A DNA stretch of 32,202 bases. Source: Planctomycetota bacterium (GTDB taxonomy: Bacteria; Planctomycetota; Planctomycetia; Gemmatales; Gemmataceae). The stretch is from contig QWPF01000022.1 in the NCBI GenBank assembly GCA_003671255.1, forward strand, positions 1-32,202, read 5' to 3'. Below, in pieces: positions 10,863-21,605 of this stretch. The translations under genes and the position numbers were made by a program. The notes below the pieces were generated by a model. The model was given only the letters and a program-made list of their open reading frames with translations. It was not told where the DNA came from and made no database searches. The number at the start of each line of letters is the position of its first letter. The stretch's first letter is position 1.

Positions 10863-10902
10863 CAGGTATTCGTGTGGCTGGGATTAGCCATAGTAAATGT
10901 TT

Positions 10903-10908
10903 GAGGGG
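10903..10908 (+). promoter_or_regulatory. Ribosome binding site deciding accA start
   Basis: GAGGGG immediately upstream of ATG 10912 (GAGG core 5 nt away). The in-frame ATG at 10897 has no such sequence, which favours the shorter protein. Confidence 0.6.
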
Positions 10909-10911
10909 TCA

Positions 10912-11907
10912 ATGGGTTCGCAAGCAAGATTACCGTTTGAAAAAGAAATATACGCACTTGAGGATCTTCTTTCATCGTTGGAGGTGAAGGAAGGTTCAGA
11001 TATTTCAAATAGCGAAGAGATTCGTCGTATTCGCAAAGAAGTCGCTAGTCTTAAAAAAGTAAAATTTGGGAATCTTACTTCTTGGGAGACCGTTTTGGTT
11101 TCCCGCCATCCTGATCGTCCACAAATGATGGACTATGTGGAAATGATTTTTGATGATTTTGTAGAACTGCATGGTGACCGTGCATTTGGTGATGATCGAG
11201 CCCTTCGAACCGGTTTTGCAAGAATTGGAGAGCATCGCGTTTTGTTGGTAGGCCATCAAAAAGGCCATACCTTGCAAGAGCGAAGAGAATGCATGTATGG
11301 TTGTGCCCATCCCGAGGGTTATAGAAAAGCTTTGAAGAATATGAAGTTGGCAGAAAAGTTTGGTCTGCCGATCATTTGTCTTATTGATACTCCGGGGGCT
11401 TTCCCCGGCATTGGCGCAGAAGAGCGAGGCCAGTCTTCACTCATCGCTGCCAATATTCTTGAAATGTCCTGCCTTAAGACTCCGGTAATTTGTGTGGTTA
11501 TTGGGGAAGGTGGTTCGGGTGGTGCTTTGGGTATAGGCGTGGGCGACAAAGTTAGTATGCTTGAGTTTTCTTATTATTCCGTGATCAGTCCGGAAGGGTG
11601 TGCAGGTATTCTTTGGAAAGCTGCCACCGAAATAACCAAGCCAATCGCCGCCGATGCTCTGAAACTCACTTCTAAAGAGTTGTCAAAGTTGGGGATCGTG
11701 GATGCGGTAATTCCAGAACCATTGGGTGGAGCACATCGTAATCCCAAAGAAATGTCGAATACTTTGAAGTCGTATTTGCTTCGCTATCTGGGTGAGTTGC
11801 TGCAGGTTCCCGTTGATGAGTTACTCGAAAAGCGTTACCAGAAATTCCGCAACATGGGTGTGTTGTTGGAAGGTAATTCGCAAGAGCAATCTGCCGGCTC
11901 TGCTTGA
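10912..11907 (+). CDS. accA: Acetyl-CoA carboxylase carboxyltransferase subunit alpha
   Basis: 331 residues; alpha subunit of the carboxyltransferase that with AccD moves CO2 from biotin carboxyl carrier protein to acetyl-CoA, the first step of fatty acid synthesis. The sequence is AccA-like throughout: FEKEI..LE..L near the N-terminus, ARHPDRP-like VSRHPDRPQMMDYV, FVELHGDRAFGDD, GHQKG, MYGCAHPEGYRKALK, LIDTPGAFPGIGAEERGQ, GEGGSGGALGIGVGD and SPEGCAGILWK. Length agrees with the usual 315-330. An alternative ATG 15 nt upstream lacks a ribosome binding site. accD is not adjacent, which is common. Expression is probably driven by the promoter at 10834. A long inverted repeat lies 51 nt beyond the stop. 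Confidence 0.97.
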   Translation: MGSQARLPFEKEIYALEDLLSSLEVKEGSDISNSEEIRRIRKEVASLKKVKFGNLTSWETVLVSRHPDRPQMMDYVEMIFDDFVELHGDRAFGDDRALRTGFARIGEHRVLLVGHQKGHTLQERRECMYGCAHPEGYRKALKNMKLAEKFGLPIICLIDTPGAFPGIGAEERGQSSLIAANILEMSCLKTPVICVVIGEGGSGGALGIGVGDKVSMLEFSYYSVISPEGCAGILWKAATEITKPIAADALKLTSKELSKLGIVDAVIPEPLGGAHRNPKEMSNTLKSYLLRYLGELLQVPVDELLEKRYQKFRNMGVLLEGNSQEQSAGSA

Positions 11908-11958
11908 GAAGTGCTCTCATATCTGATTGATAAAAGAATTTGAAGCTATACCACGAAT

Positions 11959-12048
11959 GAAACATAAGATCCGTTATCGGACGCTGTTTGAAGGCGGGAA
12001 TTGGCTGGAACTTATAATAGCAACGTCCGATAACGGCTGTTATGTTTC
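11959..12048. repeat. Long imperfect inverted repeat, 25-nt arms
   Basis: Left arm 11959-11983 and right arm 12024-12048 are reverse complements at 23 of 25 positions: GAAACATAA then three bases, then CCGTTATCGGACG. The 40-nt spacer can extend the stem by four more pairs after one mismatch, leaving a loop of about 30 nt (11989-12018). Each 13-nt inner arm is itself a small dyad (CCG-TTAT-CGG). There is no T-tract after it, so it is not a standard intrinsic terminator, and no target-site duplication or transposase is visible. It may be an RNA hairpin at the accA 3' end, a protein-binding site or a very small non-autonomous element. Confidence 0.85.
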
Positions 12049-12129
12049 CTTAAAGGTATAATGCGCTTTTATCGGTTTCGCCCTTTGTTTTCAGCCCTTT
12101 TAAGCAGTATCGCTAATAACATATTCTTG

Positions 12130-12158
12130 TTGGCCCCGGTTCTTTCTCTGGGTATATT
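12130..12158 (+). promoter_or_regulatory. Candidate promoter of oxidoreductase gene
   Basis: TTGGCC (12130-12135), 17-nt spacer, TATATT (12153-12158), about 50 nt before ATG 12209. The -35 is only a partial match. Confidence 0.35.
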
Positions 12159-12208
12159 GTAACTTGAATTCCAATTGCTTTTCCTGCCTTCCAAAGGATC
12201 TCTTCGAC

Positions 12209-13522
12209 ATGAATCAAAACAAAACTCCTAACGAAGATCACAAAGTTTTACGCGTTGGCATGATCGGCCTCGGGATGATTTTTGATGAAACCTACAAGCC
12301 TGTTTTCCTAGGGTTGGCGAACTCGCCTCTTTACTCCCCTGCCACCGGCCCTGTCGATGTTCGCTGGACAGCGGCTGCAACCCGAACAGGAGCCAGAGGC
12401 CAAAACTACCTCCAGCAGTTGAAGAACATTATTCCCCCGTTTGAAAATTTCCATGGGAATGAATCCATTCAAAAACTGCTCGCATCCAATGTTGATGTGG
12501 TTTGTGTTGCAACACCTGATGACCGGCATTTTGAAGCAGCAAAAATGGCCCTCCTTGCGGGCAAGCATGTCTTGATCGAAAAACCCTCCGTTCTTACCCT
12601 CAAAGAATTGGAGCAACTTCAGGAAATAGCTGATCAAAAGAAAGTTCTCGCCAAAGTTGTTTATCACAAGCTTGCAGACCCCGATCATAAGAAATTGCGC
12701 ACTCACTATGCCGATTCTGTTTTTCGTCATATTAATAATGGCTACTGCTCTTTGCTCGAACCCAAATCAATCAGCGGGAAACAATTTGCAGAATGGATCG
12801 TGGGAAGAAACCCTGGCACTTATGTTGCGGTCCACTATATCAAGTTGATTGATTTTACATTTGGGCCTGCAAGCGTACAGCCGGGTTGGGAGTTGATTCG
12901 TATCAATGCGACAGGCCAGAGGGGTTTGGTCGGAAATGCAGATGGGCCGACTTGGGATTCTTGCCAGCTTCAGATAACTTATAGGCACCCAGATAAGCGT
13001 GAGGCGACTTTTGATATTCATACCAGTTGGGTGATGCCTGATAATTTTCCCGGTTATGTAGAGCAAGAGGTTCAATTTCGATTTGATAACGCAATTTGGA
13101 ATGCCCATCAACGAAAACGCGGGGTCGAAATGGCAATTGAAGATCGCACTCCCAACGAACTTAAGAACACTCCCAATTATCATTACAATGGTTCTTTTTT
13201 AGAGCCTTGGGGTAAACGCAGTCAGCGTGGTTATGGATTAGAGGTGATTCATCGGTTTTTTGAGGAGGTTGCTTTTGTTGAGTTTGCAGGCCCTGCTTTA
13301 AGTCGGGATGAAAGATTGCAATCCATGAAAGAACTTTCTTACAATGATCTTAGTGCGGATAGAAATACGGTTGCGATAGTTCAGGCGATGGAAGCGATTT
13401 TGTCTGAGCATGTTGCTGGAAATTCAGGAGCCCAAGTTTTGGTTAATGGGCCAGATGGTGGATTGGTGTTATATCGGCCTGGTAAATCCGGGCATTTGGT
13501 TCTGCATGCTGCAAAAGTTTAA
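12209..13522 (+). CDS. Gfo/Idh/MocA family oxidoreductase
   Basis: 437 residues, cytoplasmic. NAD(P)-dependent sugar or cyclitol dehydrogenase family. N-terminal Rossmann fold with VGMIGLGMIFDE (nucleotide-binding GxG), a strand VDVVCVATPDDRHFEAA and the family signature GKHVLIEKP (Glu124-Lys125-Pro126; the Lys is the usual catalytic-site residue). The C-terminal alpha/beta domain follows, with H-Y-I-K-L-IDFTFG in the position of the usual dimer/substrate helix. Start chosen as ATG 12209 because AAAGGA lies about 10 nt upstream; a TTG at 12164 in frame lacks one. The class III aminotransferase begins 92 nt downstream on the same strand. The pair could act on a keto sugar or amino compound, but the substrate cannot be read from sequence. 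Confidence 0.9.
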   Translation: MNQNKTPNEDHKVLRVGMIGLGMIFDETYKPVFLGLANSPLYSPATGPVDVRWTAAATRTGARGQNYLQQLKNIIPPFENFHGNESIQKLLASNVDVVCVATPDDRHFEAAKMALLAGKHVLIEKPSVLTLKELEQLQEIADQKKVLAKVVYHKLADPDHKKLRTHYADSVFRHINNGYCSLLEPKSISGKQFAEWIVGRNPGTYVAVHYIKLIDFTFGPASVQPGWELIRINATGQRGLVGNADGPTWDSCQLQITYRHPDKREATFDIHTSWVMPDNFPGYVEQEVQFRFDNAIWNAHQRKRGVEMAIEDRTPNELKNTPNYHYNGSFLEPWGKRSQRGYGLEVIHRFFEEVAFVEFAGPALSRDERLQSMKELSYNDLSADRNTVAIVQAMEAILSEHVAGNSGAQVLVNGPDGGLVLYRPGKSGHLVLHAAKV

Positions 13523-13614
13523 GCCTAATAAGCATATTGTTTCCGTCTGTACTTCCCAAGTATTTACCGCTATTCTTATATGGCTGTATTAATTTGCCTC
13601 CAAAGGAAATTGCC

Positions 13615-15039
13615 ATGATCAAACCCATTCATCATCCTGGTGAAAACAATTCGAATGTTATTCGTGATCATTTGGTGGCTATTGAGCCAAGATCCTTGCG
13701 CACTTATACCCCTAGTCAGGCGATTTTGGCAAAAAGCGCAGGTGCATTTCATTGGACTCCCGAAGGAAGAAAACTTTACGACTTCACTTCCGGTGTATTG
13801 GTTGCAAATCTTGGGCATAACCCTGTTCGATGGACCAAAAGGTTTTTTGAATTGATGGGTTGGAATAATCTTGGTGCTGCAAACGATGGAGATGCTTATT
13901 TTCCTGCCGTCACCATGACCGCTTACAATGCTGCAACCCCAATTGAAATTCAAGCCAGCGAAAAATTGCTTGCCTTGATGCGGGTGCATCCTGTTGGCGT
14001 TCGAATGCAGCAGGTTCTTTGGGCGGCTTCGGGCTCGGAAGGAATTCAAAAGGCGCTTTGGGCTGCGATGGCAAAAGATAAAAACCGCGATATGATCATC
14101 GCAACCCGATATGGGTTTCATGGCAAAAAGGGTTTATCCAACGCAATCACCGGCACCGAAAATGATAAGGAGCGCGACCCCAGGGTTAAATTCATTTCGT
14201 TCCCCATGTGTGAATGCAATGATCTCTCCATGCGGGATAAACCGTTTGATTTTACGCATTACCAAAAAGAATTGGATGCGCTTTGGCATCAATATGGAAG
14301 AAAACTTGGGACATTGATCACCGAGCCTTATCTAGGTGGAGGTGGTTCTTATCATCCCCCAAAAGAATATCTTCAGATGCTCGTTCGTTTTTGCAGAGAG
14401 AAAGACATCGTCTTTATTCTTGATGAAGTGCAGGCGAATTTTGGCCGCACTGGCCAAAACTTTGCCTACGAATCCTATGGCATTGAACCCGATATTGTTG
14501 TGCTGGGAAAAGGCTTGGGCAATGGCGTTCCCGTGGCCGCTGTCGTTGGCAGAAAAGATTTGTTTGATTGTTTGGAATATGGTGAAGCATCAGACACCTG
14601 GAGTGCTAACCCGCTTTGTTGTGCGGCGGTGATTGCTACCCTCGAAGAATTTGAAAACGGTAAAGTGCTTGAGCATTCTCGCAAAGTATCTGCAATTATT
14701 GAGGAGGGCTTGATTGCCCTAAAAAAAGATATGCCTTTTGTTGCCAATGTTCGTGGCGAAAAAGGTGGCATGGTTTGGGGCGTTGAAATGGCGGATTGGG
14801 CAGGGAAAAATTCGCATGAATGGGCCTGCGCCATGGTTGAAGCTTGTTATCGAGGTGAACCCAACGGCGATGGTATTCATATTCTTGGGCCATTAGCCCG
14901 GAAGGTGGTTAGGATATCTCCACCGCTTACTCTTTCGCTGGCAGAGGCTACTGCTTCAATGAAATTATTGCATAAGCTCCTTGCCCCATTGGCTAAAAAT
15001 AATGTCGATCACAGCGCCGCCATTGCGGGTGGGCGCTAA
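13615..15039 (+). CDS. Class III (PLP-dependent) aminotransferase
   Basis: 474 residues, cytoplasmic. Fold type I aminotransferase of class III (family of acetylornithine, GABA and glutamate-1-semialdehyde aminotransferases). Evidence: ASGSEGIQKALWAA (phosphate cup), the signature D270-E-V-Q273 followed by ANFGRTG, and the Schiff-base lysine Lys299 in VLGKGLGNG, then SDTWSANPLCCAAVIATLE. Start chosen as ATG 13615 with AAAGGAAA 5-6 nt upstream; the open frame extends to a TTG at 13537 without a ribosome binding site. A weak promoter-like pair (TTACCG at 13564, TATTAA at 13587, spacer 17) precedes it. Likely co-oriented with the oxidoreductase upstream. The amino donor and acceptor are not predictable by eye. 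Confidence 0.92.
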   Translation: MIKPIHHPGENNSNVIRDHLVAIEPRSLRTYTPSQAILAKSAGAFHWTPEGRKLYDFTSGVLVANLGHNPVRWTKRFFELMGWNNLGAANDGDAYFPAVTMTAYNAATPIEIQASEKLLALMRVHPVGVRMQQVLWAASGSEGIQKALWAAMAKDKNRDMIIATRYGFHGKKGLSNAITGTENDKERDPRVKFISFPMCECNDLSMRDKPFDFTHYQKELDALWHQYGRKLGTLITEPYLGGGGSYHPPKEYLQMLVRFCREKDIVFILDEVQANFGRTGQNFAYESYGIEPDIVVLGKGLGNGVPVAAVVGRKDLFDCLEYGEASDTWSANPLCCAAVIATLEEFENGKVLEHSRKVSAIIEEGLIALKKDMPFVANVRGEKGGMVWGVEMADWAGKNSHEWACAMVEACYRGEPNGDGIHILGPLARKVVRISPPLTLSLAEATASMKLLHKLLAPLAKNNVDHSAAIAGGR

Positions 15040-15070: not shown

Positions 15071-15226
15071 ATGCCTGTTGATCTGTTTCATCCTCTGATT
15101 GGTAGTCAGGTATTCATTGGCTTGACCAGATTCTTAATTCTTTTGCCTCGAATTTTTCTGAGGGGTCTTTCTTTAACCAGGTCTTTAACCTTCGAGCGAT
15201 GCTTGCCCTTGCCCTCGTCAGCTTAA
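15071..15226 (+). pseudogene. Out-of-frame N-terminal piece of the ABC permease gene
   Basis: ATG 15071, with GGA 8 nt upstream, opens a 51-codon frame (MPVDLFHPLIGSQVFIGL...) that ends at a TAA inside the permease gene. The permease frame itself stays open upstream of its first ATG and reads DQILNSFASNF...FFNQVFNLRA into TM1, a natural permease N-terminus with no usable ATG. Adding one base near 15121-15126 (TTGACC to TTGGACC) joins the two into a single protein. I interpret this as a one-base deletion, or a sequencing error, that split the true 5' end; no classical slippery heptamer is visible for a programmed -1 shift. Confidence 0.6.
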
Positions 15227-16032
15227 CTTGTGGTGCAGTGGGTTCCATGGTCGTTGGCAGTAGGATGGCTTTTTTTAGCGATGCCCTAGCTCATTGTGCT
15301 TTTGCTGGGGTGAGCTTGGGCTATGTTATTTTCGAGCTATTTATTCTTGGCGCCCGCCCCAAGGAAGAATTCTGGGAATGGGTTACACCCATTATGGTTG
15401 TTTTTGGTATCGCTGTAGGCGCCGGTATCGCCTATGTTAGGGGCCAGACTGGGTTGGCTAGCGACACCGTAATTGGTGTTTTCTTTGCCTTTTCACTTGG
15501 CTTTGCTGCCATGCTTAAAAATATTATCAATGATCGCAGTGTTTTCAGTTTGGAAGATTTTCTATTTGGCGACCCGCTCTTTGTAAGTGCATCCGAGATT
15601 TTATACATGGCGGGATTGGCTGTTTTTACCTGGGTCTTCTTGTTCTTTTTTTATAACCGCATGGTCTTTAGCAGTTTCAACAGCAGCCTTGCACTTTCGA
15701 GGCGTTACCCTGTTACGGTTCTTTACTATTTGTTTGTCATCTTGTTGGCATTAATTGTGAATCTTTGCTTAAGGTATGTGGGAGTGCTTTTGATCAACGC
15801 CTTATTGATTGTACCGGCAGCTACGGCATTCAATCTTGGAAGAAATTTGCGTGAAGTTTTCTGGCTTACCGTTCTGCTGAGTGTCTTTGTGTGTTTAGCT
15901 GGGTTGGGCGCAAGCTGGGAACTCCAAGTTCGTTCGGGGGTTAAGTTTGGGGTTTCAGGCACGATCGTGATGCTGGGTGTGGGGTTGTTTTTTTGCTCGA
16001 TGATCATTGGGAAATTAAAGGCTACTTCTTAA
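15199..16032 (+). CDS. Zinc/manganese-type ABC transporter permease (ABC-3 family, ZnuB-like)
   Basis: 277 residues as an intact frame. Integral membrane subunit of a metal-uptake ABC transporter: repeated hydrophobic helices, and the family motif SRMAFFSDALAHCAFAGVSLG after the first helix (compare RRM..GDALAH.AL.G in ZnuB/MntB). A later VLLINALLIVPAATAFNL segment is also typical. The frame is open before ATG 15199 and that upstream part reads like genuine permease sequence, so the real protein probably starts further upstream (see the frameshift entry). If ATG 15199 is used the first helix is still complete, but there is no good ribosome binding site. The ATPase and substrate-binding subunits are not adjacent. 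Metal specificity cannot be fixed from sequence; zinc or manganese is family inference. Confidence 0.88.
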   Translation: MLALALVSLTCGAVGSMVVGSRMAFFSDALAHCAFAGVSLGYVIFELFILGARPKEEFWEWVTPIMVVFGIAVGAGIAYVRGQTGLASDTVIGVFFAFSLGFAAMLKNIINDRSVFSLEDFLFGDPLFVSASEILYMAGLAVFTWVFLFFFYNRMVFSSFNSSLALSRRYPVTVLYYLFVILLALIVNLCLRYVGVLLINALLIVPAATAFNLGRNLREVFWLTVLLSVFVCLAGLGASWELQVRSGVKFGVSGTIVMLGVGLFFCSMIIGKLKATS

Positions 16033-16158
16033 TATATTTGATATTAATTCAACCAGCTCCTTGATTCCAGCACCGATCTAATTGACAATAGATAAAGCAT
16101 AAATGGTTGGGGCAGGTTCCCAACTAAACTATTTTTTACAGATGGGATAAATGAAGCT

Positions 16159-17217
16159 GTGGATAGTTCTCAAGCTCTCGATAAAATTAAAGATTTCCTT
16201 CTGATTTTCACCAGCATCTTTTATGAAGCTTTGCCCTTTATTGTTATTGGGTCTTTGCTTGCAGGGCTTCTTGAAGAGTTGCTCCCTCAAAAACTGATCG
16301 CAAGGCTTCTTCCGCGGAATCGGTTTTTTGCAATTTTAATAGGCGCACTTCTAGGTTTGATTTTTCCCATGTGCGAATGTGGCATCATACCAGTTATGCG
16401 CAGGTTGCTGCGCAAAGGTTTACCTTTGAGTTGTTGCGTAGCTTATCTTTTAGCTGGCCCCATTATTAATCCCCTCGTTTTACTTAGCACTTATGTTGCT
16501 TTTGATGGTATGGAGAATGCCACCGAAAACGGAACTCTTGCTTTTCAAATGGGCGGACTTGCAATGGTCTTGACTCGTACAGGTATGGCTTATCTCGTTG
16601 CAGTTGGAACCAGCCTTATTGTTGACCGCCTTCATCAAAAACATGGCGATGAACTTCTCATGCCTTTGGCAAAGCCCCCTGTTAAAAGCAAACTTTCACT
16701 TGATGTTGTTGATGATGATGATGTAACTGTAAATAAAGGCAGCATGAATTGGTTTGCCCGTGCTTCCAGAATTTCGGAAACCGCACTTCACGACTTTATC
16801 GATATCACCGTTTTTCTTACCATTGGCGCGCTCCTTGCTGCTTTTACTCGCATTTGGCTTACCCATGATGCTATTTCTGAACTTTCCCGTTCCCATATCA
16901 TTCTTGCTGTTCTTTTGATGATGGCTTTGTCGGTTGTCCTTTGCCTTTGCAGCGAAGCTGATGCCTTTGTCGCTGCCAGTTTTGTTACTTTAAGGCCCGC
17001 AGCTAAAGCTGGGTTCCTTGTACTTGGGCCCATGTTCGATCTTAAACTTTACATGATGTACACCAGGGTGTTTAAACCCAAATTGATTTGGACTATAATA
17101 ATCTCTGTGGTAATTCAGGTTTTTCTTTACACCATGATCTTGCATGGCCTTTGGGAAAACCTTGGACCTAAGTTCTTCTTTCCAAAAATTGATCCTATAA
17201 CTTCAACCTCCAGGTGA
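16159..17217 (+). CDS. YraQ/YcgR-like permease (DUF318 family)
   Basis: 352 residues, about eight hydrophobic segments. Family signature [15 protein letters not shown] (C72-E-C74-G) and [15 protein letters not shown] in the first half, and [15 protein letters not shown] in the second half, a pseudo-repeat arrangement known from DUF318 permeases related to ArsP. A variable loop (about 160-205, with VVDDDDVTV) separates the halves. The cysteine motifs suggest a metal or metalloid ligand, but the transported substrate is not established. Start GTG 16159; only weak ribosome binding sequence (GGGATAA further upstream). The stop is 4 nt before the next GTG and the next gene's ribosome binding site overlaps this stop, so translation is coupled to the TIGR03943-type partner, a conserved pairing. 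Confidence 0.9.
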
Positions 17218-17221
17218 ATTT

Positions 17222-18226
17222 GTGGCTAATGAACATCACCACCACGATAATGCTACCGAATATTACATCGAACAATTAATTGGCGTCGGTATCTCTCTTT
17301 CCATCGCCTATGTTTGCATCATGCTGTGGTGGCCCTTTCCTATTTATGGTGCCGATGGGCAGATTATTTCCTATGGCAACAAATTATCGATCATCTTGCA
17401 TCCCAAGTTTCATTTCTGGGTTTTAACTGGCAGCATTATTCTTTTGGGCATTGTATCTATCCGGGTAATCGCTCTATGGCTTGAATCGGGCAAATTAAAA
17501 TCAGCACCTAAACATGAACATGTACATGGCCCCGATTGCGATCATGATAAAACCCACGATCACGACCATGGCCATAATCATAATCATGTGCATGGACCCG
17601 ATTGTAACCACGATCATGATCATGAACCTGGGCATAATCATAACCATGAATCACCAGGTCATGCAGATTGTGGGCATGATCATAGTCATGGTTCTGCGCC
17701 TGTTCGATTTATTGTCTTACTTCTTCCAATTGTTTTATTCTTCCTTAATGTTCCCAACGAGGTTTTCAGTAATGTCAAGGGTGTAGATCTTTCGCAATTT
17801 AGTGAAGTAGCTTCTGTAGCTGAAAAGGGAATTGACTTTAATGTTGGTTTTTTACAGTTGGAAATGGCTTCCATGACTCAGGAAAGCAGAAATCATTACG
17901 AAGGTAAAACAGTCAGATTGATAGGGAAATATGTGGGTGAAGAAGAAAAGCGCTTTTCACTCATCCGTTTTAAAATTAATTGCTGTGCCGCGGATGCAGT
18001 GCCACTCAACGCAGTCATGATGGTTGATCCTAATTCCACAGAAAAACTATCATGGAAAAAGTATGCTAACAAATGGGTTCAAGTGACGGGCCGTGTACAT
18101 TTTCTCAAACGAAAAGATAATGAACAGTACATGACTGCCTTAGTTTTATACCCCGATGCCGAACACAAACTTAATGATGATTTGGTTAAAGTTGTACCGC
18201 AAGATTCCAACCCCTATGCTAACTAG
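17222..18226 (+). CDS. TIGR03943-type (YcgQ/DUF1980-like) membrane protein with His-rich loop
   Basis: 334 residues. Starts at GTG 17222 behind AGGTGA (17212-17217), which overlaps the permease stop. N-terminus has HHHH (5-8), two helices (about 22-40 and 66-86), then a loop at 98-157 with 21 histidines, three cysteines and many aspartates, including two copies of HVHGPDC. A third helix (about 161-177) leads to an extracytoplasmic domain with the family motif [13 protein letters not shown] (Cys254-Cys255). This C-terminal domain and the adjacency to a DUF318 permease identify the family. Role: the pair is thought to move or supply a metal across the membrane; histidine loops of this kind bind Zn, Ni or Co. 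Metal identity is inference. Confidence 0.88.
17513..17695 (+). repeat. Region encoding His-rich metal-binding-type loop
   Basis: Codes for residues 98-158 of the TIGR03943-type protein: 21 His, 3 Cys and many Asp, built from HD, HN and HVHGPDC units. CAT/CAC and GAT/GAC codons alternate, so the DNA is internally repetitive and could expand or contract. Confidence 0.85.
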
Positions 18227-18272
18227 CATTCCATTATGCGGTAATTTAATCCGTAGAAGTCTTGGAGTTATT

Positions 18273-19436
18273 ATGAACCTTAAGAAGATGTTTTTCATTT
18301 TGCTTTTTTGTTTTGTCGCAGTTACAGGCAGGCTATTCTCCTGCCCTTTTTGCACCATGCAGGGCCAAACCCTTGTAGGGGAAGTCAATCAAGCCAGCAT
18401 GGTTCTTTTTGGTACTTTGAAAAATGCCAAGATTGGTAATGCTGATGGCGCCGATGGTAGCACTGATTTTGAAGTCGAAAAAGTCATTAAAGATCATGCC
18501 ATCCGTGGTGGTAAAAAAACACTGACTCTTCCCCGCTATGTACCACCAGACAAAGATGGGAAATATAAGTTCCTACTTTTTTGTGAGGTTTATAAAGATA
18601 AACTCGACCCTTATCGGGGCGTTGCAGTTCCGCCAGAAAGTGAAATAGTCGCTTACCTACAAGGCGCGTTGGCTTTAAAAGATAGCACCCTGCCTAAAAA
18701 ACTTGGGTTTTATTTTAACTATCTGGAAAACACAGATACTGAAATTTCAAATGATGCGTACAAAGAGTTTGGTAATGCCGGCTACAAAGAATTTGAACTC
18801 GCAGCAAAACTTTTTTCCCGAGAGAAAGTGATTTCATGGCTTAAAAATTCCGCAACGCCATCCTTTAAAATGGGTTTGTACGCTTCAATTCTTGGGCATT
18901 GTGGCAAGCCAGAAGATGCGCAAATTCTTAAACAGTTGCTGGAAGATCCTGAAAAACAATCAGCAAGCGGCATCGATGGCGTGTTTGCCGCCTATGCCAT
19001 GCTCAATCCCAAAGAGGGCTGGGAATATCTAATTGCGGTGATGAAGAATCCCAAGAAAGAATTTTTGTTTAGATATGCAGGTTTACGGGCAGTAAGGTTT
19101 TTTCTGGAGTTTGCGCCAGATTTGATTCCTAAGAAAAATCTGATTGAAGCTATTGTTTTATTGCTGGATCAAGAGGATATTTCCGACTTGGCAATTGAAG
19201 ATATGCGGAAATGGAAGGTTTGGGATCAAGCAGACAAGGTTCTGGGCTTGCAAGAAAAAGATGCGTATAAGAAAATTCCAATCGTTCGAAGAGCTGTGTT
19301 GCGCTACGCATTGTCTTGCAAAGGAAGTGCCGCTGCAGACGATTTTGTTAAAAAGCAAAGGCTTGCAGATGCTCAAGGGGTTATGGACGCAGAGGAATTA
19401 TTGAAATTAGAGCAGCCAGCTCCTCCTGCGAAATAA
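18273..19436 (+). CDS. Secreted CxxC protein of unknown function, paralogue 1 (HEAT-like)
   Basis: 387 residues. Signal peptide 1-22 or so, then CPFC with Cys24 and Cys27. The first mature domain (about 30-130) is beta-rich and includes VLFGTLK and DPYRGVAVPP; it resembles the N-terminal part of the following gene. The rest (about 140-370) is helical with repeated 35-40 residue units that look like HEAT or armadillo-type repeats. The protein is homologous along its length with the next gene (for example LFG.., FRGV.., GLY..ILG.CG, L.LLDQE..DLAIEDMRK and DLAIEELRK). Start ATG 18273 has GGAG 5 nt upstream; the open frame further upstream overlaps the previous gene and has no binding site. No known family recognised. 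Position after the metal genes and the CxxC suggest a periplasmic metal or redox role, inference only. Confidence 0.75.
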   Translation: MNLKKMFFILLFCFVAVTGRLFSCPFCTMQGQTLVGEVNQASMVLFGTLKNAKIGNADGADGSTDFEVEKVIKDHAIRGGKKTLTLPRYVPPDKDGKYKFLLFCEVYKDKLDPYRGVAVPPESEIVAYLQGALALKDSTLPKKLGFYFNYLENTDTEISNDAYKEFGNAGYKEFELAAKLFSREKVISWLKNSATPSFKMGLYASILGHCGKPEDAQILKQLLEDPEKQSASGIDGVFAAYAMLNPKEGWEYLIAVMKNPKKEFLFRYAGLRAVRFFLEFAPDLIPKKNLIEAIVLLLDQEDISDLAIEDMRKWKVWDQADKVLGLQEKDAYKKIPIVRRAVLRYALSCKGSAAADDFVKKQRLADAQGVMDAEELLKLEQPAPPAK

Positions 19437-19481
19437 TTTCTTTGGCTTGTTAATTGCTTAGTCCAGGGAAGGACGGTTTTA

Positions 19482-20636
19482 TTGCGAACTGCTCACCTCA
19501 TTTTTATTGTTGTATTCATTGCTGCAATTTCCGCAGAAAAAATTATTGCATGCAGTATTTGTGCTGGGTATGGGCAATCTCTTTCTCTTCGGGAGCAGGC
19601 ATTAAAATCAAACTCCAAGGTTATTCTGTTTGGCGTCATCACTAAATCAAGCCTTGAAGTTGATGGGACGGGGAAGACTGAAATTTCCGTGCAAAAAAAC
19701 TTTGTACTACCCGCCGATTTTAAGCCTCAGGCTTCTATTTCCATCAAGCAATATCTGCCCTTCGATGCCAATGCCTATAATGGAATTTTGTTATTTGCAG
19801 ACTATTCGAAAGGGCAGCTAGATGTGTTTCGTGGCGTTTCTATTCCATCAAAAGAAGTATCTAATTATGCTGCCGGTGCACTGGGGGCGATAACCCTCAA
19901 GGGCCCTGCTCTGTTAGATTATTACCTTCCTTTTCTGCAATCACCTTCGAGAGAAATAGCCACAGATGCTTTCTTGGAATTTGCCAAGGCTTCAGATTCT
20001 ATGCTTCTTGAGTTTTCAAAAAAAATGAACCCTGCTCTATTGAAAAGTTGGATTTTAGATCCGAAGGTTCCTGAAGAGCGTTTGGGGCTGTATTCTTTTC
20101 TTCTTGGTGGATGTGGAATTGAAGCTGATATCACTTTTTTACTCGAGATGCTTAAGTCGCAGGATTCCAGGGCGCAGGCTGCTTTTGATGGAGCGATGGT
20201 TGCATTAATCCGGTTGCACCCCGCCCAAGGTTGGAATGCACTTGATGGGTTTTTAAAAGCAGATAATACGCCACTGCAGACAAGGCTTTCATGCATTCGT
20301 TCAATCAAAGTTGCCAATGAAATAATGCAGGGCAAATCAGACAAGGCTGAAATTTTCAAAGCTTTAAACATAGCATTGAAACAAGGTGAACTAGCAGATC
20401 TTGCAATTGAAGAACTGCGAAAAATGAAGCACTGGGGTTTTACCCAAGAGATACTGAGTATATATGGAACCAAAGGGTTCACCGCACCCGTCATGAAGCG
20501 TGCGTTTCTTCGTTATGCCCTGACCGCGCCCAAAGATCCGCAGATTGAAAAGTTTTTGGCTCAACTAGAAACCAAGGACTCCCAGATGCTTCTTGAAGTG
20601 AAAGAATCACTGGGTTTGGTTCCATTAAACCCTTGA
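19482..20636 (+). CDS. Secreted CxxC protein of unknown function, paralogue 2 (HEAT-like)
   Basis: 384 residues, 45 nt after its paralogue. Starts with TTG 19482 behind GGGAAGGA (19466-19473). Signal peptide about 1-18 (ISA-EK cleavage) then CSIC with Cys24 and Cys27, exactly the positions seen in the upstream protein; IIAC could also be read as a lipobox, but the preceding Glu-Lys makes this unlikely. Same domain order as paralogue 1: beta-rich N-terminal part with VILFGVITK and DVFRGVSIPS, then a helical repeat region. Identity between the two looks low to moderate, so the duplication is old. The 3' end converges with the PD40 gene, 9 nt apart. Function unknown. Confidence 0.75.
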   Translation: MRTAHLIFIVVFIAAISAEKIIACSICAGYGQSLSLREQALKSNSKVILFGVITKSSLEVDGTGKTEISVQKNFVLPADFKPQASISIKQYLPFDANAYNGILLFADYSKGQLDVFRGVSIPSKEVSNYAAGALGAITLKGPALLDYYLPFLQSPSREIATDAFLEFAKASDSMLLEFSKKMNPALLKSWILDPKVPEERLGLYSFLLGGCGIEADITFLLEMLKSQDSRAQAAFDGAMVALIRLHPAQGWNALDGFLKADNTPLQTRLSCIRSIKVANEIMQGKSDKAEIFKALNIALKQGELADLAIEELRKMKHWGFTQEILSIYGTKGFTAPVMKRAFLRYALTAPKDPQIEKFLAQLETKDSQMLLEVKESLGLVPLNP

Positions 20637-20645
20637 TCATCGGAT

Positions 20646-21569
20646 TTATTTCAGCTTAAGATCTAAAACCGTGACACTGTAAATATCAAGCCCGCCCTGC
20701 CCCCCTGCCCTATCTGAAGCAAAGTATAACTTCAAACCATCCCTGCTTAGCGAGGGCGATTTTGTCCCGATTTTACCAGTCGAATCTTTAAGATTGGCAA
20801 CAGCAATCGGTTTCGACCAACCGCCATTTAAGGTCTTCGTACAAGAGTAGATTTCTAGGCGCCCATCATCAGCAATTCCTTCAAGGAACATCAGGTTTCC
20901 TAATGGGGTGATGGAGGCGTGGTGAAATCCAATCGGGAGATCCTTGAGTGGTTCTGGGGCATCAAAGTTACCTTCGGTTCCCGTGCCTTTGACACGCTTT
21001 GCAACCATCTGTTGCCAGCCTTCTTTGGTTTTTCTGCTGAAGTATAATGACATTTGATCCTTGGAAAGCCAGGGGTGCATTTCATCCGTTTCAGTATCGA
21101 GGGCAAGAAGAGGTTTTCCCGGGTTGAAGGCACGGTCTTCCATATCCTTGCCTGGTTGATCCCTAAAGGAACGGAACAAATCGAAGTTGTTGTTTAGCTT
21201 GTCTTTTTTTGTTGCGTAGATGATGGTTTGAGGGAATTTGCCCTCTTCGGTAAGAAAGCAACTACGATCATCTGCCTCGGTGTCAACATATGCACCAATG
21301 GTTTCAGGATTACTCCATTTACTTGTTTTTTTCAAGAACTTAGAGAAGAAAATAGAATACTTCCCTTTTTCATTCTTGCGGGAAAAATAAAATCTTGCAG
21401 GATAAACTGTGCTTAGAGAAGGAACAAAAAGTGGATCATCTTCATCCATTTCCGTGTTGATTGGCATGGGTGTCAACTTAAGTGGTGCGTCCGCACCACT
21501 GGAATTTAAAGGTGTGAAGATTGCAGCAAAAAATAAAACCACGCCCATCAAACCACTTAAACGCTTCAT
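20646..21569 (-). CDS. Secreted PD40/TolB-like beta-propeller protein
   Basis: 307 residues. Signal peptide about 1-25 (ends NSSGAD). Mature part contains repeated WD40-like (PD40) blades: ARFYFSRKNEKGKYSIFFS, HPWLSKDQMSLYFSRKTKEGW and SPSLSRDGLKLYFASDRAGGQGGLDIY, the last being the classic TolB/PD40 signature. No catalytic domain is attached. Start chosen as ATG 21569, which has GGAGA 7 nt upstream; an upstream in-frame ATG at 21596 would give an unnatural N-terminus before the signal. Lies 36 nt after the SMP-30-like gene on the same strand and is probably co-transcribed with it. Binding partner unknown. Confidence 0.82.
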   Translation of the reverse strand: MKRLSGLMGVVLFFAAIFTPLNSSGADAPLKLTPMPINTEMDEDDPLFVPSLSTVYPARFYFSRKNEKGKYSIFFSKFLKKTSKWSNPETIGAYVDTEADDRSCFLTEEGKFPQTIIYATKKDKLNNNFDLFRSFRDQPGKDMEDRAFNPGKPLLALDTETDEMHPWLSKDQMSLYFSRKTKEGWQQMVAKRVKGTGTEGNFDAPEPLKDLPIGFHHASITPLGNLMFLEGIADDGRLEIYSCTKTLNGGWSKPIAVANLKDSTGKIGTKSPSLSRDGLKLYFASDRAGGQGGLDIYSVTVLDLKLK

Positions 21570-21605
21570 GCAAAAGTCTCCAGAAATCAGAACCATAAAT
21601 AATGT

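Follow-up and report, generated by a model that had tools for sequence, protein, structure and literature searches.

Why should two secreted proteins of no recognised family be encoded directly behind genes for metal-type permeases? The question arises at positions 15071-20636 of contig QWPF01000022.1 (assembly GCA_003671255.1), a 32,202-nucleotide stretch of DNA, called the window throughout, from a planctomycete with a 3.2 Mb genome whose closest named relatives are mostly metagenome-assembled genomes of Planctomycetaceae or Gemmataceae. An earlier note on this stretch had described five co-directional genes and proposed that they form a relay for zinc or another soft metal. The gene series is borne out, and we call its last two products P5 and P6:

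15199-16032, forward strand: ABC-3 (ZnuB-type) permease (PF00950, E 1.5e-45), frameshifted at its 5' end, with an expected start at about 15071
16159-17217, forward strand: DUF318/ArsP_1 permease, SO_0444/YcgR-like (PF03773, E 3.6e-50)
17222-18226, forward strand: TIGR03943/YcgQ-like partner with hydrophobic segments, a 21-His loop and a C-terminal CC-motif domain
18273-19436, forward strand: P5, secreted protein with a predicted NTR-like domain and HEAT repeats (AlphaFold2), CPFC at the predicted mature N terminus
19482-20636, forward strand: P6, tandem paralogue of P5 (by similarity), CSIC at the predicted mature N terminus

The answer towards which we lean is that Gemmatales-type planctomycetes encode here a module for handling a transition metal, most likely zinc, in which P5 and P6 would be exported accessories at the CC-motif partner.

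Family and predicted fold of P5 and P6

P5 and P6 share 27% identity over 383 amino acids (E 7e-50), and no third copy was found in the genome. Neither protein matches a Pfam or NCBIfam model, which agrees with their earlier description as two tandem secreted CxxC proteins of unrecognised family, and our literature search found no paper naming such a family. A profile of the P5 family (A2) nevertheless detects it in 332 of the 398 genomes of the class Planctomycetia, and in 303 of the 340 good ones; in a sample of the phylum outside the class it matched three genomes only, over the helical part.

The AlphaFold2 model of P5, built on 15 sequences, joins a barrel of five strands to a helical solenoid (pLDDT 85.4, pTM 0.80), and the N-terminal domain modelled alone reached a pLDDT of 81.7. 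Searched with Foldseek, this domain matched TIMP-1 (2j0t_D, E 2.9e-4, prob 1.0), and structure searches also returned the NTR domains of agrin (NtA), meteorin and Sizzled. The VIA-align list again consisted of NTR-module proteins, led by the Sizzled NTR domain (Z 9.5 over 98 residues at 2.6 Å); Z values of about 9.5 are middling, and the weight rests on the consistency of the list. The domain is thus predicted to be an NTR/TIMP-like OB-type barrel that starts at the CxxC motif. As in the NTR modules of TIMP, agrin NtA, meteorin, Sizzled and complement C345C, a cysteine motif opens the domain, ahead of a predicted OB-type barrel; P5 and P6 differ in carrying CxxC where TIMPs carry CxC, in being bacterial, in the fused HEAT solenoid and in the lack of a significant sequence match. 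None of 32 P5-family members matched a Pfam NTR model, and a PDB profile search gave nothing significant. The C-terminal part of the model drew helical-repeat structural matches and classes as an alpha solenoid of the HEAT type, with HEAT_2 matching weakly in 4 of the 32 members (best E 6.6e-4; below the curated cut-off where shown).

TIMPs are metalloprotease inhibitors whose mature form starts with a cysteine, and it is this N-terminal cysteine that chelates the catalytic zinc of the protease. Among 62 P5-family members the residues before the CxxC motif follow an AxA pattern ending at the first cysteine (AxA/C) in 57 and a lipobox in 4. On this reading of a sequence pattern as a cleavage site, the first cysteine of P5 and P6 may be mature residue 1, as in TIMPs; the pattern is the only feature consistent with chelation of the TIMP-inhibitor type. 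The same counts led us to reject P5 and P6 as lipoproteins. We also rejected them as thioredoxin-like redox proteins, since the model matches NTR folds, although the missing thioredoxin match is no proof in itself.

Two transporter contexts share a CC-motif partner

The earlier note had named recurrent linkage of the CxxC proteins to DUF318/TIGR03943 genes as a test of its proposal. In the GTDB family of the window, 79 genomes have both P5 and TIGR03943, and in 31 of them, from 20 of 36 genera, the two lie no more than 3 kb apart; in a sister family belonging to that order all six genomes show the linkage, with match edges 73-88 bp apart. In the other 48 of the 79 genomes P5/P6 and TIGR03943 are apart or on different contigs, and taken alone this outcome is mixed. 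Together with the sister family, this pattern of linked and separated genes indicates that the connection of P5/P6 with the permease genes is old in the order and has often been lost.

A second context emerged outside the order, in 17 further family-level groups, most of which lack TIGR03943; 48 of the 57 genomes examined there carry a family of DUF3299-like proteins, and in 45 of these 48 it is found within 3 kb of P5. The P5-family genes adjoin pairs of CC-motif DUF3299-like proteins, and several loci add a LolD-like ATPase and a permease matching MacB_PCD/FtsX. One DUF3299-like member exceeds the PF11736 cut-off (25.7 versus 22), the others being recognised by profile only, and the profile of the set matches the solved structure PDB 4hsp (7.9e-9). 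Aligned with hhalign over the CC-motif domain, the TIGR03943 and DUF3299-like sets prove to be related (Prob 93.9, E 1.6e-7), with the vicinal CC invariant in both. Across genomes outside Gemmatales and group f5, 233 have both P5 and DUF3299-like genes, 4 have P5 alone, 16 have DUF3299-like genes alone and 40 have neither; we attach no probability to these counts because related genomes are not independent.

DUF3299 is the ZrgE component of ZrgABCDE, a Zur-regulated zinc system of Vibrio, and its gene rises 75.8-fold when zinc is lacking (PMC9817125). ZrgB is a MacB-like permease; no role has yet been assigned to ZrgE, and single knockouts showed no effect (PMC9820375). Pirellulaceae-like and other P5 loci resemble this system in their LolD-like ATPase (ZrgC), MacB/FtsX permease (ZrgB) and DUF3299-like proteins (ZrgE), and two relatives' loci (L099 and L103) hold permease, ATPase and DUF3299-like protein together, a ZrgABCDE-like arrangement. 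They differ from the Vibrio system in having two DUF3299-like proteins instead of one and an added NTR-HEAT protein, whereas the window itself has DUF318/TIGR03943 in place of the ABC system. ZrgA (DUF2796) was not seen among the relatives' neighbouring genes, where no search for DUF2796 was made. Given the linkage in 45 of 48 genomes, the identity of DUF3299 with ZrgE and the relatedness of the TIGR03943 C-terminal domain, the P5 family has a well-supported association with transport genes of the metal type. That a single relay joins the ABC-3 permease, the DUF318 pair and P5/P6, as proposed earlier, would go further, and zinc, the metal proposed, may be the one handled.

The main rival is that P5 and P6 are general envelope proteins, for instance TIMP-like inhibitors or scaffolds of secreted enzymes, with no part in metal transport and with a transporter neighbourhood that is mainly old gene order. 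It draws on the 16 genera in which P5/P6 lie away from the ABC-3-DUF318-TIGR03943 trio, there often between an HD_4 hydrolase and an M17 leucyl aminopeptidase, on the near-universality of the family in the class, which suggests a core function, and on the NTR fold being best known in protease inhibitors and extracellular binding modules. We nonetheless judge it unlikely: the P5 family is tied to two transporter types whose sole common part is the CC-motif partner, its presence outside Gemmatales follows that partner, and an inherited order would need to have been retained separately in both contexts. The hydrolase and aminopeptidase genes also flank P5/P6 in some genomes where the pair is linked to the trio. 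In one relative they lie at L059:8932-9507 (HD_4, MESH1/SpoT-like) and L059:12284-13840 (M17), and they occur likewise in L052, L054 and L077.

The invariant cysteines suggest another alternative, a thiol/redox or envelope-stress system in which the CxxC of P5/P6, invariant in all 32 family members compared, would keep the vicinal CC of the TIGR03943 and DUF3299-like proteins reduced or oxidised while the permeases carry a non-metal cargo. The description of B. subtilis ycgR/ycgQ under extracytoplasmic function sigma factors of envelope stress (PMC5584981) would fit such a system. We regard it as improbable, as the modelled CxxC domain resembles NTR/OB rather than thioredoxin folds, and the His-rich loop of TIGR03943 members, with a median of 20 His in 60 residues, fits metals better.

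The DUF318 permease and its TIGR03943-like partner

The DUF318 permease is well above the PF03773 cut-off (171.2 versus 32.3 bits, model positions 3-293 of 294). Against NF033936, the SO_0444 Cu/Zn efflux model, it scores 78.9 bits, under the curated 300-bit cut-off, and we do not count it as a member. Its partner stays below the curated cut-off of NCBIfam TIGR03943 (65.2 versus 88.8 bits), likewise falling outside formal membership, and exceeds that of DUF1980_C (PF21537; 34.7 versus 25.9 bits). It has three predicted hydrophobic segments and, as had been noted, a loop rich in His, residues 98-157 containing exactly 21. The tight coupling of the two genes was also read correctly: the stop is at 17217 and a GTG start at 17222, a gap of 4 nucleotides.

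The two proteins resemble the DUF318 (ArsP_1) and TIGR03943/DUF1980 pair of the B. subtilis YcgR/YcgQ type in belonging to the same families, in being encoded 4 nucleotides apart and in the CC-motif C-terminal domain. They differ in the partner's score below the TIGR03943 cut-off and its 21-His loop, and in having an ABC-3 permease and NTR-HEAT proteins as neighbours. In B. anthracis an ArsP_1 (DUF318-type) permease gene is bound by Zur, at sites suggesting positive control (PMC6336718). Positive control of this kind would fit efflux, whereas Zrg is an importer.

Regulation by Zur was also examined here, following the earlier suggestion of a Zur-type operator. A scan upstream of the ABC-3, DUF318, TIGR03943, aminotransferase (AMT), Gfo-type oxidoreductase (GFO), P5/P6 and Zrg-like ATPase genes brought no Zur-like operator to light: perfect dyads of the 7-1-7 or 8-1-8 type were not enriched, the form of the planctomycete Zur site not being known to us.

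The ABC-3 gene and the limits of the locus

The ABC-3 permease scores 156.2 bits against a PF00950 cut-off of 20.1. Its start had been placed at 15071, which proved to be out of frame, the open reading frame present being 15199-16032. Five near relatives (L003, L004, L005, L007 and L008) encode a 321-residue ABC-3 protein that starts at the equivalent of 15071, and a DNA alignment of the 5' end (window versus L003-L009) locates the difference. One of the five, L005 (CAMDHK010000020.1), is titled Candidatus Kuenenia stuttgartiensis and has the same gene order at 97% identity; for such a contig that title seems mistaken. The window retains the conserved N-terminal segment IHWLDQILNSFASNFSEGSFFNQVFNLRA, but only in the 15199 frame and preceded by a stop, owing to bases absent at about 15100-15119. 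This gap may be a genuine frameshift or an assembly error, between which the assembly alone cannot tell. Three further features bear on the 5' part of the locus:

15100-15119 (approximate), forward strand: bases missing relative to relatives (MAFFT alignment)
16104-16126, forward strand: hairpin resembling a terminator, between ABC-3 and DUF318 (matched by consensus alone and poorly conserved among relatives)
13537-15039, forward strand: class-III aminotransferase (PF00202, E 1.3e-67), found 5' of the trio in most of the order-level relatives too, and probably outside the function of the locus

The locus resembles the ZnuABC/ABC-3 zinc-manganese importers in that its first gene encodes an ABC-3 permease, and differs from them in that the window and the sampled relatives have no adjacent ATPase gene. 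A motif scan of the window and of 24 relatives' loci found no typical ABC ATPase beside ABC-3, its matches being confined to two long open reading frames, one of 667 residues in the window and one of 712 residues (ABC-F-type, opposite strand) in L042; we therefore rejected the idea of one simple operon encoding an ordinary ZnuB importer. No solute-binding protein occurs among the named neighbours, for which no dedicated ZnuA profile search was made. Three further ABC-3 matches lie elsewhere in the genome.

These features raise the possibility of two units side by side, in which the aminotransferase and ABC-3 genes would be co-transcribed, DUF318, TIGR03943, P5 and P6 would form an operon and ABC-3 would have no role there. 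The hairpin and a 126-bp gap separate ABC-3 from DUF318, no ATPase adjoins ABC-3 and its gene is frameshifted in the assembly; the hairpin also leaves a single five-gene transcript unproven. We find this arrangement somewhat doubtful, given that the trio is adjacent in most sampled loci of the order even where P5/P6 have moved away, usually after the aminotransferase and an oxidoreductase, and that the hairpin is poorly kept among relatives. For the genes other than ABC-3 it is compatible with a metal-handling module. In the 95 genomes of the window's GTDB family ABC-3 is present in 93, DUF318 in 91 and the TIGR03943-like gene in 83.

Farther upstream, 10897-15039 encodes AccA, a Gfo/Idh-like oxidoreductase and the aminotransferase, which recur 5' of the trio across the order. 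After P6, on the opposite strand, lies a PD40/TolB-like protein (20646-21596) that recurs by the P5/P6 pair in several genera. An Rfam scan of the whole window gave no match.

A candidate metal-handling module

In the module that we favour, the core would be the DUF318 permease and its partner of TIGR03943 type, which would supply metal ligands from its His-rich loop and CC-motif domain, with the ABC-3 permease, lacking an ATPase of its own, encoded directly 5' of this core. P5 and P6 would be exported, each with a TIMP/NTR-like barrel opening with the cysteine of the CxxC motif and a HEAT solenoid behind it, and would dock on the transporter from outside, at or near the CC-motif domain, assisting there in the capture, handover or gating of the metal. 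In other Planctomycetia the P5 family is encoded next to DUF3299-like proteins, at several loci also next to a MacB/FtsX-type ABC transporter. The analysis shows the gene order, the paralogy of P5 and P6, the spread of their family, its repeated linkage in two transporter contexts, its predicted fold and the kinship of the TIGR03943 C-terminal and DUF3299-like domains; which metal is moved and which way, whether the proteins touch and what the N-terminal Cys/CxxC does are inferred.

Several observations weigh against this proposal. P5 and P6 show no obvious metal site, His-rich or otherwise, apart from CxxC. P5/P6 and TIGR03943 are separated in the 48 window-family genomes mentioned above, where the hydrolase and aminopeptidase that often flank the unlinked pair are silent on metals, and a gene order can be conserved through descent instead of function. 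DUF3299-like genes occur in group f8 (G103, G127, G140, G230 and G269), and the P5 family was not found there; DUF3299 membership of most of the planctomycete proteins is at profile level only. DUF318 relatives are tied to efflux and Zrg to uptake, so that no single direction fits, and the upstream scan showed no Zur-like dyad enrichment. The Gram-positive ycgR/ycgQ-type pair has been tied also to envelope or acid stress (PMC5584981). On balance the metal-handling reading has been strengthened by the follow-up; as a whole, what the earlier note observed is partly confirmed and how it interpreted the locus is partly supported.

A more specific version is a long shot. P5 and P6 would be the first members of a planctomycete family whose TIMP-like domain, through the backbone amine and carbonyl of its freed N-terminal cysteine and the CxxC motif, caps a zinc site on the transporter subunit that bears the CC motif and His loop, a TIMP-style chelation turned to metal transport, not protease inhibition, in two unrelated transporter types.

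Implications

The recurrence of P5/P6 beside zinc-type transporter genes suggests a new extracytoplasmic helper in metal transport, and so gives a testable role to a large, near-universal planctomycete family (303 of 340 good class genomes) that has neither a Pfam nor an NCBIfam model. TIGR03943/DUF1980, a domain of unknown function, is now linked to DUF3299 (ZrgE), itself of open role in Vibrio. An NTR/TIMP-like module mounted on HEAT repeats would, if true, be unexpected in bacterial metal transport, and should P5 and P6 work with transporters of both types, they would probably dock on the CC-motif domain that these have in common.

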